From Thermodesulforhabdaceae bacterium (GTDB taxonomy: Bacteria; Desulfobacterota; Syntrophobacteria; Syntrophobacterales; Thermodesulforhabdaceae), in the NCBI GenBank assembly GCA_037482015.1, contig JBBFKT010000001.1:840584-904583 (forward strand): 64,000 bases of DNA, given 5' to 3'. Shown here in pieces: positions 46,228 through 53,044 of the stretch. Under the pieces are notes generated by a model. That model was not told the origin of the DNA. It made no database searches and saw nothing but the letters and a program-made list of their open reading frames with translations. The stretch's first letter is position 1, and each line of letters begins with the position of its first letter. A program made the translations under genes and the position numbers.

Positions 46228-46773
46228 ATGAAGAAAGTGTTTTTTTGTCTGATAACAACTTTCTTTGCTATTTTTGTTGTTTCATCGGCTTTTGCGATAG
46301 AGCAGGCACAAAGGATAAGCGACAGAGAAATAATTGAACGACTCACGAAAGTCGAAACAAAACTTGAAGAAAACCAGAAAGCAGTTTTGCAAAGAATTGA
46401 TGATCTCGAAAAGCGTTTTGAACAGCGGTTTGAAGAAATCGACAAACGTTTTGAAGAGATGAATAAACGCTTCGATCAACGTTTTGCGGAGATAGATAAA
46501 CGTTTTGAAGAGATCAACAGGCGTATTGATCAACGTTTTGAAGATCTTAACAAACAACTTGATCGATTGACAGCGGTATTTACGGCTATTGTTGTAGCCG
46601 TTATAGGATTTGCATACTGGGACAGAAGAACTATTATAAAAAAGGCCAAAGAAGAGGCTCTAGCTGAACTCAGGAAAAAAGACAAATCTAAAGATCTTAT
46701 TAATGTCCTCCTTGAACTTGCCAAGACTGACGACCGTCTGGCAAAGGTTTTGAGGCAGTTCAACATCTTGTAG
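46228..46773 (+). CDS. Coiled-coil membrane protein, tandem paralogue 1
   Basis: This 181-residue protein has a signal-like N-terminus (FFCLITTFFAIFVVSSAFA). A long coiled coil built from 11-residue repeats follows (RFEQRFEEIDKRFEEMNKRFDQRFAEIDKRFEEINRRIDQRFEDLNKQ), then one membrane helix (TAVFTAIVVAVIGFAYW), then a charged C-terminal domain (KDLINVLLELAKTDDRLAKVLRQFNIL). Function is unknown; it may be an envelope scaffold. The next gene is a near-identical paralogue lacking 22 coil residues. GGGAGGG precedes the ATG. Confidence 0.7.
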   Translation: MKKVFFCLITTFFAIFVVSSAFAIEQAQRISDREIIERLTKVETKLEENQKAVLQRIDDLEKRFEQRFEEIDKRFEEMNKRFDQRFAEIDKRFEEINRRIDQRFEDLNKQLDRLTAVFTAIVVAVIGFAYWDRRTIIKKAKEEALAELRKKDKSKDLINVLLELAKTDDRLAKVLRQFNIL

Positions 46774-46827
46774 AACTTTGAAAATATCTGGCCTGGTTTA
46801 AGCGTCAGTTTTTCATGGGAGGTATTG

Positions 46828-47307
46828 ATGAAGAAAGTAATTTTCTTCCTTATTTTGCTTGTATCGATGGCCTTTTTTGTCTGTCCCGGTTTTGCGATAG
46901 AACAAGCAGAAAGGATAAGCGACAGGGAGATAATTGAACGACTCACGAAGGTCGAAACAAAACTCGAAGAAAATCAGAAAGCCGTTTTGCAAAGAATTGA
47001 AGATCTTGAGAAACGCTTTGAACAGCGTTTTGCGGAGATCGACAAGCGTTTTGAAGAAATAAATAGACGTTTCGAAGATCTCAACAGACAACTTGATCGG
47101 TTGACGGCGGTATTTACGGCTATTGTTGTAACCGTTATAGGATTTGCATACTGGGACAGAAGAACTATTATAAAGAAGGCTAAAGAAGAGGCTCTGGCTG
47201 AACTCAGGAAAGAAGACAAATCCAAAGATCTTATTAATGTCCTCCTTGAACTTGCCAAAACCGACGACCGTCTGGCAAAGGTCTTGAGACAATTTAATAT
47301 TTTGTAA
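46828..47307 (+). CDS. Coiled-coil membrane protein, tandem paralogue 2
   Basis: This 159-residue protein is colinear with the preceding gene: same signal, same ISDREIIERLTKVETKLEENQKAVLQRI start, same membrane helix and a near-identical C-terminal 70 residues. It lacks 22 residues, two 11-residue coil units. GGGAGG precedes the ATG at 46828. The pair arose by tandem duplication with later loss or gain of coil repeats. Mixed oligomers of the two are conceivable. Confidence 0.7.
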   Translation: MKKVIFFLILLVSMAFFVCPGFAIEQAERISDREIIERLTKVETKLEENQKAVLQRIEDLEKRFEQRFAEIDKRFEEINRRFEDLNRQLDRLTAVFTAIVVTVIGFAYWDRRTIIKKAKEEALAELRKEDKSKDLINVLLELAKTDDRLAKVLRQFNIL

Positions 47308-47414: not shown

Positions 47415-47543
47415 AGAGGTGGCGTAGGTCACCTCTATGATTTGTGGCTTTCCCAAAATTCCGCCTGCTGGGGCATTGGGAAAGCCCGGAAGGGCGGATG
47501 ATAAATACCCCAGCCTCAAACTATGCAAAATGCGTAGTTTGAG
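47415..47543 (+). promoter_or_regulatory. Complex structured leader with interleaved inverted repeats (candidate RNA element)
   Basis: Directly upstream of the FmdB-type gene lie a hairpin (AGAGGTG/CACCTCT, 47415-47436) and an 11-bp perfect stem (GGCTTTCCCAA 47446-47456 with TTGGGAAAGCC 47476-47486). The 19-nt loop of that stem pairs downstream twice: TCCGCC 47460-47465 with 47493-47498, and GCTGGGG 47467-47473 with 47508-47514. A 9-bp hairpin (47515-47543) ends 15 nt before the start codon. No known riboswitch class was recognised. Confidence 0.6.
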
Positions 47544-47558
47544 CAATCAAGCGTGAAG

Positions 47559-47843
47559 ATGCCCATTTACGAATACGAATGCACAAGTTGCGGTAAGATC
47601 ACTGAGGTAATGCAGAAGTTTTCCGATGCACCCCTTACAACTTGCCCTTCCTGTGGGGGATCGCTCAGAAAGCTTATCTCTCTCAGCACGTTTCATCTAA
47701 AAGGAACTGGATGGTATGTGACAGATTATGCTCATAAATCCCAGGGTTATTCGCCATCCAAATCTAAAGAGAAAGATTCGTCGACTTCTTCGTCGGGAGA
47801 AAGCTCCTCTTCGTCTAAAAGTTGTTCATCCTGTGGGGATTAA
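47559..47843 (+). CDS. FmdB-family zinc-ribbon protein
   Basis: This 94-residue protein begins [41 protein letters not shown], the FmdB/CxxC_CxxC regulatory-protein ribbon. [14 protein letters not shown] and a Ser/Lys-rich tail ending in SCSSCGD follow. The family was named for putative regulators of formamidase genes; most members have no proven role. ATG 47559 matches the invariant MPIYEYxC start, whereas the in-frame GTG at 47553 does not. The structured leader ends 15 nt upstream. A strong terminator follows. Confidence 0.88.
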
Positions 47844-51172: not shown

Positions 51173-53044
51173 ATGCATCACGACGTCCCAACAATTACCG
51201 AAGATGGCCGCCTTATGATAAAGAAAGCGGCGGCAGACGGTGTGGAAACCGTATGGGATCGTTACCAGGCTCAGCTTCCCCAGTGCGGCTTTTGCGAACT
51301 GGGATTAAGCTGCCGAAACTGTGTCATGGGTCCTTGCCGTATAGATCCCTTCGGCGAAGGACCCCAAAAGGGTGTTTGTGGAGCCGATGCCGACATTATA
51401 GTCGCAAGAAACCTTGGACGGATGATTGCCTCAGGATCAGCATCCCATTCCGATCACGGAAGAGACCTCGTTGAGGTGCTCCGTAGCGTAGCAGAAAATA
51501 AAGCCCCAGGATACAGAATCTCCAGCGAGGAAAAGTTAAAAAAGGTTGCCGTAGAACTTGGCATAAATGCCGATGGAATGAGCGTTAACGAAATAGCTTT
51601 GAAGCTAGCCGAAGCCCTTGAAGAAGACTTTGGCACTAAAAAGCGAGAAGTGTCTTTTGTTGCCAGAGCCCCCAAAGACCGACGTGAACTCTGGGCAAAA
51701 CTTGGCATTACCCCACGAGGCATCGACCGGGAAGTTGTCGAAATGATGCACCGCACTCACATGGGAGTGGATAATGACTGGATAAGTCTGCTACTTCACG
51801 GCCTTAGAACTGCTCTTGCTGACGGCTGGGGTGGGTCTATGATCGCTACCGAAGTTTCCGACATCCTTTTCGGTGTGCCAAAACCCGTCCCGTCCGAAGT
51901 CAACCTTGGAGTGCTTAAAGAAGATCAAGTCAATATCATTCTTCATGGACATAATCCTCTTGTTTCCGAAATGATCGCTCAGGCGTCGCAGGATCCCGAT
52001 CTGATTGCTCTTGCCAGAGAAGTCGGTGCCGCAGGGATCAACCTTGCAGGGCTATGCTGCACGGGGAACGAACTCCTGATGCGTCGTGGCATTCCCATGG
52101 CCGGTAACCACCTTATGACCGAACTCACCATAGCCACCGGAGCTGTGGAAATGGTGATCGTTGACTATCAATGCATTATGCCATCACTCGGAACTGTTGC
52201 TACCTGCTATCACACCAAGCTGATTTCCACTTCCGATAAAGCAAAATTCCCCGGAATGACACATAAAGAGTTTCATCCTGAAAACGCTCGAGAGCTAGCT
52301 CGAGAAATTATCAAAGAAGCTGTTGAAAATTTCAAAAATCGCATCCCCGAAAAAGTCTTCATCCCCGTAAAGCCTGTTAAAATCTTTAGCGGCTTTAGCG
52401 TGGAATCGCTACTGGATGCACTTGGTGGCTCTCTGGATCCTCTGGTTGACGCAATTAAATCTGGAGCCATAAAAGGGGCTGTCGGTGTAGTTGGATGCAA
52501 TAATCCCAAGATTAAACACGACTATGGTCATGTGACTCTGACGAAAGAGCTTATTAAAAATGACATTCTTGTTGTAGATACGGGCTGTGCGGCTGTGGCT
52601 CATGGTAAAGCCGGTCTTAAACAGCTCGAAGCAGCCCGTCTCGCCGGCAACGGTCTTAGAAAAATCTGCGAAGCGCTCTCCATTCCTCCTGTTCTTCATG
52701 TGGGAAGCTGTGTTGATAACGTGCGGATTCTTGTCCTTGCGGCGGCTTTAGCAAATCATATCGGTGCCGATATGTCCGCTCTACCTCTTGCTGCTGCAGC
52801 CCCTGAGTGGTATTCCGAAAAAGCGGTTTCTATAGCCTGTTATGCCGTAGCATCTGGTATCTTCACAGTCCTGGGTGTAACACCGCCTGTGCTTGGAAGC
52901 CGTAACATCGCAAAACTTCTGACCGAAGACCTTGAAAAGGTGGTAGGAGCAAAATTTGCCGTGGAACCAGATCCTCAGAAGGCTGCTCGCTTGATTATAG
53001 ATCACATTGCGGCAAAACGGGTAGCTCTGGGACTTTCGGCTTAG
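51173..53044 (+). CDS. cooS: Anaerobic Ni carbon monoxide dehydrogenase, catalytic subunit
   Basis: This 623-residue protein has the N-terminal B/D-cluster cysteines (QCGFCELGLSCRNCVMGPCRIDPFGEGPQKGVCGADAD) and the C-cluster ligand segments: HGHNPLVSE, GINLAGLCCTGNELLMRRGIPMAGNH, VDYQCIMPSL, VGCNNPKIKHDYGHV, DTGCAAVAHGKAG and LHVGSCVDN. It oxidises CO to CO2 or runs in reverse. No cooF, cooC, hydrogenase or acs gene is beside it, so its electron partner is encoded elsewhere. GGAGGA precedes the ATG. Confidence 0.96.
   Translation: MHHDVPTITEDGRLMIKKAAADGVETVWDRYQAQLPQCGFCELGLSCRNCVMGPCRIDPFGEGPQKGVCGADADIIVARNLGRMIASGSASHSDHGRDLVEVLRSVAENKAPGYRISSEEKLKKVAVELGINADGMSVNEIALKLAEALEEDFGTKKREVSFVARAPKDRRELWAKLGITPRGIDREVVEMMHRTHMGVDNDWISLLLHGLRTALADGWGGSMIATEVSDILFGVPKPVPSEVNLGVLKEDQVNIILHGHNPLVSEMIAQASQDPDLIALAREVGAAGINLAGLCCTGNELLMRRGIPMAGNHLMTELTIATGAVEMVIVDYQCIMPSLGTVATCYHTKLISTSDKAKFPGMTHKEFHPENARELAREIIKEAVENFKNRIPEKVFIPVKPVKIFSGFSVESLLDALGGSLDPLVDAIKSGAIKGAVGVVGCNNPKIKHDYGHVTLTKELIKNDILVVDTGCAAVAHGKAGLKQLEAARLAGNGLRKICEALSIPPVLHVGSCVDNVRILVLAAALANHIGADMSALPLAAAAPEWYSEKAVSIACYAVASGIFTVLGVTPPVLGSRNIAKLLTEDLEKVVGAKFAVEPDPQKAARLIIDHIAAKRVALGLSA

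Follow-up and report, generated by a model that had tools for sequence, protein, structure and literature searches.

What is the knotted RNA that lies directly 5′ of an fmdB-type gene in a Thermodesulforhabdaceae bacterium, and how did it come to stand beside a start codon? Within the window, as we call the whole 64,000-nucleotide stretch of DNA analyzed here, a sequence-only reading had described an 11-bp stem (A) with a 19-nt loop whose two halves pair with downstream segments over 6 bp (B) and 7 bp (C), and had suggested either a riboswitch or a structured mobile-element end. When the window sequence was read again, all of these pairings were found exactly as drawn, in the order A-B-C-A′-B′-C′ and followed by a hairpin (D), and the fmdB ATG (47559-47561) does begin 15 nt past the end of hairpin D. 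The nested fold alone was 4.5 sd below dinucleotide shuffles. Two flanking hairpins had been thought to complete a 129-nt unit; hairpin D is conserved, whereas the hairpin on the 5′ side is absent from the other three copies in the same genome and was rejected as a component of the family. Because this 5′ hairpin (47415-47436) is not common to other copies, the conserved unit spans about 47446-47543 (Table 1).

Table 1. Features at the fmdB locus, in window positions, and copies of the RNA in the window genome.
Feature	Location	Strand or orientation	Remarks
Stem A, 5′ arm	47446..47456	+	11 bp with 47476-47486, 19-nt loop; covariation at 11/11 pairs
Stem A, 3′ arm	47476..47486	+	Pairs with 47446-47456
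Pairing B, loop side, UCCGCC (conserved core CCGCC)	47460..47465	+	6 bp; 5′ half of A loop
Pairing B, downstream side, GGCGGA	47493..47498	+	6 bp with 47460-47465
Pairing C, loop side, GCUGGGG	47467..47473	+	7 bp; 3′ half of A loop
Pairing C, downstream side, CCCCAGC	47508..47514	+	7 bp with 47467-47473
B′-C′ linker, ends in conserved AAAUA	47499..47507	+	9-12 nt in all copies
Hairpin D, 12 bp (47515-47526 with 47532-47543)	47515..47543	+	Sequence variable, pairing kept; double changes at 12/12 pairs
5′ hairpin, window copy only	47415..47436	+	5′ arm AGAGGTG resembles the former fmdB Shine-Dalgarno
Leader ORF, 39 codons, across whole element	47437..47556	+	Stops 2 nt before fmdB ATG; putative function
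fmdB-type zinc-ribbon gene	47559..47843	+	Pfam PF09723 Zn_ribbon_8, E 3.7e-19
Own-genome copy	window	sense	5′ of fmdB
Own-genome copy	L002	sense	5′ of DRG/TGS-type GTPase gene
Own-genome copy	L003	sense	Between rplU and rpmA, 5′ of rpmA
Own-genome copy	L004	sense	5′ of Cas_APE2256 CRISPR-associated gene

The three further copies in the window genome (G000) are 78-80% identical to the window copy, and all four lie in sense orientation just 5′ of a start codon. A first covariance model, built from these four copies and run on 148 relatives, gave matches in further genomes, several of them strong, and the core sequence pattern matched at least 119 stretches of public genomes. One pattern match (L116) was discarded as a chance match. 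No sign of a viral origin was found, the core pattern having no match in IMG/VR. Homologues occur in Aquificota, Thermoanaerobacterales and Desulfobacterota. Among the matches listed, those with names (Caldanaerobacter, Thermoanaerobacter, Carboxydothermus, Caldicoprobacter, Fervidicola, Coprothermobacteraceae, Caldisericum, Aquificaceae, Hydrogenothermaceae, Thermodesulfobacteriaceae, Desulfofervidaceae and comparable lineages that are thermophilic or come from hot sites) are either thermophiles or MAGs from clades in which thermophily prevails, a few MAG names being uninformative. A second covariance model found the RNA in 83 of 136 Aquificota genomes, with a maximum of 35 copies in one, in searches that favor intact copies, and so under-count decayed relics, and that covered several incomplete MAGs.

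Neither the window RNA nor the RNA in 14 homologous loci matched Rfam at gathering score, and RAGATH-18 was absent among the Rfam matches in those loci; the matches seen around the window copy at a low threshold seem to be due to chance. The proposed Rfam search thus assigned no known class, and the covariation search proposed alongside it found homologues with compensatory changes in all four helices, at every pair in A and D. Across 75 aligned copies, 95.0% of cells were paired, compared with 71.0% in shuffles, double-change cells numbered 552 versus 146, and no more than 51% paired when the partners were slid. In 72 non-redundant copies, the stem A arms gave -16.7 kcal/mol when paired with their own partner versus -7.7 kcal/mol with a foreign one, and only 3.6% of foreign arms paired equally well. 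Pairing C was complete (7/7) in 71 of these 72 copies, although its sequence varied (GCTGGGG/CCCCAGC, GTTGGGG/CCCCAAC, GCCGGGG/CCCCGGC, GCTGGAG/CTCCAGC, GGTGGGG/CCCCACC and GCCGGAG/CTCCGGC). In the 72-copy set the search pattern itself dictated pairing B, and the variation in B therefore comes from model-found copies, where it was either CCGCC/GGCGG or GCGCC/GGCGC; the compensated form GCGCC/GGCGC occurred in 15 of 52 parsed copies of four genomes (G217, G190, G224 and G150). These compensated variants in B and C indicate that both crossing pairings are real. With its strong covariation and no match in Rfam, the RNA upholds the suggestion of a new structured RNA 5′ of genes and, judged from sequence, very probably represents an undescribed family of omega-RNA, all of its helices being backed by covariation.

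The crossing of B and C had been taken to imply that they compete. The crossing is there, but every copy keeps both pairings, with a 1-nt spacer between B and C and, in the 72 copies, a B′-C′ linker of 9-12 nt ending in AATA or AGTA. Given these constraints, it appears at least as likely that B and C form together, as an ABCABC pseudotrefoil. That topology is known but rare, with 51 RNAs listed (PMC3390330), and it is in topology, rather than in any established sequence relation, that the family resembles those RNAs.

Many copies proved to belong to a mobile element. About half of the pattern-found copies, among the matches listed, had a conserved coding sequence ahead of them, which encodes a TnpB of about 500 aa (TIGR01765, E 1.5e-24; TIGR01766, E 9.7e-19), and some of these full-length homologues also contained an IS607 serine recombinase (NF033518, E 2.1e-46; Resolvase domain). 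The full-length homologues form the right end of an IS607 element in the order serine recombinase, TIGR01765-type TnpB, RNA. The search for tnpA and tnpB near other copies was thus productive, and the notion of a structured mobile-element end survives in spirit, with an IS607 element (serine recombinase, GG crossover) in place of the IS200/IS605 type that had been named. A TCAA after the last hairpin, also pointed out in that connection, plays no visible part, and IS607 ends follow GG. Full-length copies carry an extra upstream hairpin with a CUUGG or CCUGG loop complementary to a CCAGG at the 3′/guide boundary; the complementarity, read from the sequence, is nearly invariant, and CCAGG was present in 54 of 59 full-length copies among the matches listed. 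This arrangement is what the guide-flanking pseudoknot known for TnpB reRNAs would lead one to expect (PMC10711439). A transposon origin of the scaffold is well supported, and the window RNA is very probably the omega-RNA (reRNA) scaffold of an IS607 transposon with a TIGR01765-type TnpB.

The new family shares several properties with the reRNAs of the IS607 elements ISXfa1 (PMC10711439) and ISFba1 (RAGATH-18; PMC11061315): it lies 3′ of tnpB, is pseudoknotted, has a right-flank G(G) as part of the scaffold and goes with a probable GG crossover. It differs from them in secondary structure, its ABCABC core being missed by Rfam RAGATH-18, in its TIGR01765-type TnpB of about 500 aa and in its many solo copies without tnpB. 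With the omega-RNA of the IS200/IS605 element ISDra2 (PMC10097598) it has in common a right-end guide scaffold and a pseudoknot beside the guide, whereas its recombinase is a serine enzyme rather than Y1 (HUH) and insertion is at GG/Shine-Dalgarno rather than after a Y1 target motif.

Eight left ends of elements (L049, L137, L148, L063, L110, L133, L062 and L100) were preceded by GGAGG, and the full-length RNA ends in CCAGG just before the start codon, indicating that the elements sit in Shine-Dalgarno (SD) sites. Insertion into the SD in turn explains the sense orientation just 5′ of start codons. IS607 recombination takes place at GG without target duplication (PMC6188088), and the TAM of the ISFba1 IS607 TnpB is AGGAG (PMC11061315), an SD-like motif that parallels the SD targeting of the new family. 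In a Desulfobacterales MAG, full-length elements were located 5′ of fmdB (twice) and htpX (L035, L112 and L055), genes that have solos in the window genome and Aquificaceae.

At the window locus, the comparison with relatives locates the insertion near the old SD. The fmdB genes of four relatives have no RNA and carry a strong SD directly before the ATG (GGGGGAGG, GGGAGG, TGGAGG and CAGGAGG), with GGGAGGTGG/TGGAGGTGG immediately 5′ of the ATG. In the window, a matching AGAGGTGG stands 5′ of the element, at 47415-47422, and is paired there with CACCTCT. A plain SD before the ATG in the relatives, together with an SD upstream of the element in the window, points to insertion between the ribosome-binding site and the start codon, and we consider it highly likely that the fmdB copy arose by insertion at the SD. 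Neither tnpB nor tnpA is found alongside the window copy, which is not 3′ of a tnpB inside an IS607 element, and a profile search of the window genome found no TIGR01765 TnpB. The only TnpB there is a Zn-ribbon TnpB of another IS607. This separate IS607-type element (L151; G000:C2, about 88 kb) encodes a serine recombinase of 191 aa and the Zn-ribbon TnpB of 519 aa, and the end of its tnpB overlaps the start of the next gene.

The absence of a TIGR01765 TnpB extends beyond the window genome. A TIGR01765 match was absent from 14 of 33 RNA-carrying genomes, including the complete one-contig genomes G083 and G119, in family searches that can miss diverged TnpB. TIGR01765 TnpB was also absent from G190, with 18 copies of the RNA, and from G217, a 1.5-Mb genome in which all 35 matches are on contig C1. 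The genes behind the RNA in G217 include hfq (twice), rpsU, rpmF, rplY, rpsT, rpsR, rpsK, rpoA, infC, rho, ndk, ftsH, trxA, transaldolase and thiG, and presumably glyA, ilvC and nuoB, which were identified by N-terminal sequence only. Over all copies, the downstream genes are varied (ribosomal proteins, hfq, rpoA, rho, htpX, mreB, fmdB and a CRISPR-associated gene); the names htpX, mreB and hpf are our own assignments from sequence, made without a family search. These genes have no metabolic theme in common, which argues against the suggested riboswitch responding to metals, cofactors or C1 metabolites; on the evidence at hand, the RNA is not a metabolite riboswitch.

The explanation that we favor, with a probability of roughly 0.6, is that the RNA is a leader module, derived from omega-RNA, that stands alone and is maintained in cis although its nuclease is gone. 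IS607/TnpB elements would insert in sense orientation at the GG of an SD, so that the scaffold lands 3′ of the ribosome-binding site and 5′ of the start codon, and the window genome, like other thermophiles, would then have lost tnpA and tnpB. The compact scaffold (the A/B/C pseudoknot with hairpin D) would be kept as a module of the translation-initiation region and become part of the mRNA. There it may act in cis and independently of TnpB, as a heat-stable structure beside the start codon with an influence on mRNA stability and/or access to the start site; a short leader ORF might provide coupling, or a protein might recognize the conserved core. All solos would, on this explanation, derive from the transposon rather than from an older leader captured by it, and they were probably retained for a cis role through an effect on stability or initiation.

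Features of the leaders bear on parts of this mechanism. An ATG-started ORF runs across the element in 40 of 97 solos versus 18 in simple shuffles and in many cases stops close to the following start codon; since the shuffle does not preserve the core, the excess is only suggestive, and suggests possible translational coupling. A conserved leader peptide was rejected, the frames differing between copies so that there is no common peptide. SD-like motifs were not enriched overall on either side of the element, downstream motifs included, and retention of the old SD upstream, tried as a universal rule, was not significant overall, although fmdB and some G217 copies show it plainly. Of 13 strong predicted promoters, 8 put the transcript start at stem A. 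In G217, a predicted promoter start fell at stem A for only 6 of 28 copies, and operons enclose several of the copies there; a general rule that the promoter ends at stem A was therefore abandoned, as it holds for a subset only.

Solo copies could instead be neutral relics, right ends left after IS607 insertion into an SD and deletion of tnpA and tnpB, with no host function. Insertion at SD sites is directly visible, and at two loci (L081, + copy; L126, - copy) partial deletions have joined IS607 recombinase remnants directly to the RNA, possible intermediates toward solos. The fmdB copy is missing in relatives, so that locus gives no evidence of conservation. SD targeting alone could explain both position and orientation, strong SDs could explain the housekeeping bias, and highly expressed genes may simply be better SD targets. 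Against neutral decay, however, the 35 G217 copies are structurally intact without a TIGR01765 TnpB. The same orthologous genes carry the RNA across genera of Aquificota, namely hfq (G217, G190, G150 and G162), rpsT and rpmF (G217 and G190), rho (G217 and G224), infC (L033 and L215) and, at five loci, htpX (L052, L053, L084, L118 and L149), with helices that differ but are compensated. In seven G217 copies (L201, L203, L207, L208, L210, L211 and L212), the core is 93% identical and the D hairpins, at 49%, have diverged yet all fold, which looks like homogenization of the core or selection by a common partner and is hard to explain as decay. Finally, guide-side features were lost and the core was not: the CUUGG/CCUGG hairpin and the CCAGG of full-length homologues are missing from the window copy and from most solos. 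Among the matches listed, 42 of 61 copies of the solo class, which includes some truncated full-length copies, had no CCAGG-like motif, and CCAGG was kept in 4 of 30 G217 copies. We consider a neutral origin of this kind unlikely.

It is more doubtful still that the solos are trans-acting guides serving a TnpB, or a nuclease-dead TnpB of the TldR kind, encoded elsewhere, with the sequence after the RNA as target. The full-length homologues do have the architecture of TnpB guide RNAs, some hosts encode a TIGR01765 TnpB, and G217 contains five TnpB ORFs of another type. However, five genomes (G001, G083, G119, G190 and G224) had no TIGR01766 match at all, the CCAGG and its partner hairpin are mostly missing in solos, and the 'guide' would equal the start region of the gene itself. 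In TldR systems, nuclease-dead TnpB and guide RNAs (PMC13418256), parts of TnpB elements have likewise been exapted for host gene control, whereas here the RNA is kept in cis and several hosts have no detectable TnpB. Least probable is an older protein- or ligand-sensing cis-regulatory leader that IS607 took up to form its right end: recurrent translation and stress genes (hfq, infC, rho, rpoA, ribosomal proteins, hpf and htpX), the conserved core with its unpaired AAAUA and, for some copies, a promoter that ends at stem A would suit it, but the gene set has no common metabolite theme, SD targeting explains the placement, and nothing alike appears in Rfam or in a term search of an Aquificales ncRNA survey (PMC4227106).

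An ambitious form of the leader-module explanation, to which we give somewhat less than even odds, has a TnpB-independent module widespread in the mRNAs of thermophiles, with a triple-crossing pseudoknot at the start codon and, in the 1.5-Mb genome, a 35-gene regulon of translation, transcription and core metabolism genes. The guide system of type V CRISPR descends from TnpB guide RNAs, and we know of no earlier case in which a host kept the guide scaffold rather than the nuclease. If the leader-module explanation is true, this would have happened on a genome-wide scale. The locus also adds an omega-RNA family of rare pseudoknot topology that is absent from Rfam, shows IS607 elements landing in SD sites, and makes it possible to test directly whether structure in a leader supports gene expression at high temperature.

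In the window itself, two tandem and very similar coiled-coil ORFs of 181 and 160 aa (46228-46773 and 46825-47307) lie directly 5′ of the element, and a large ORF at 51173-53044 is, by our assignment from sequence resemblance, presumably an anaerobic carbon-monoxide dehydrogenase.
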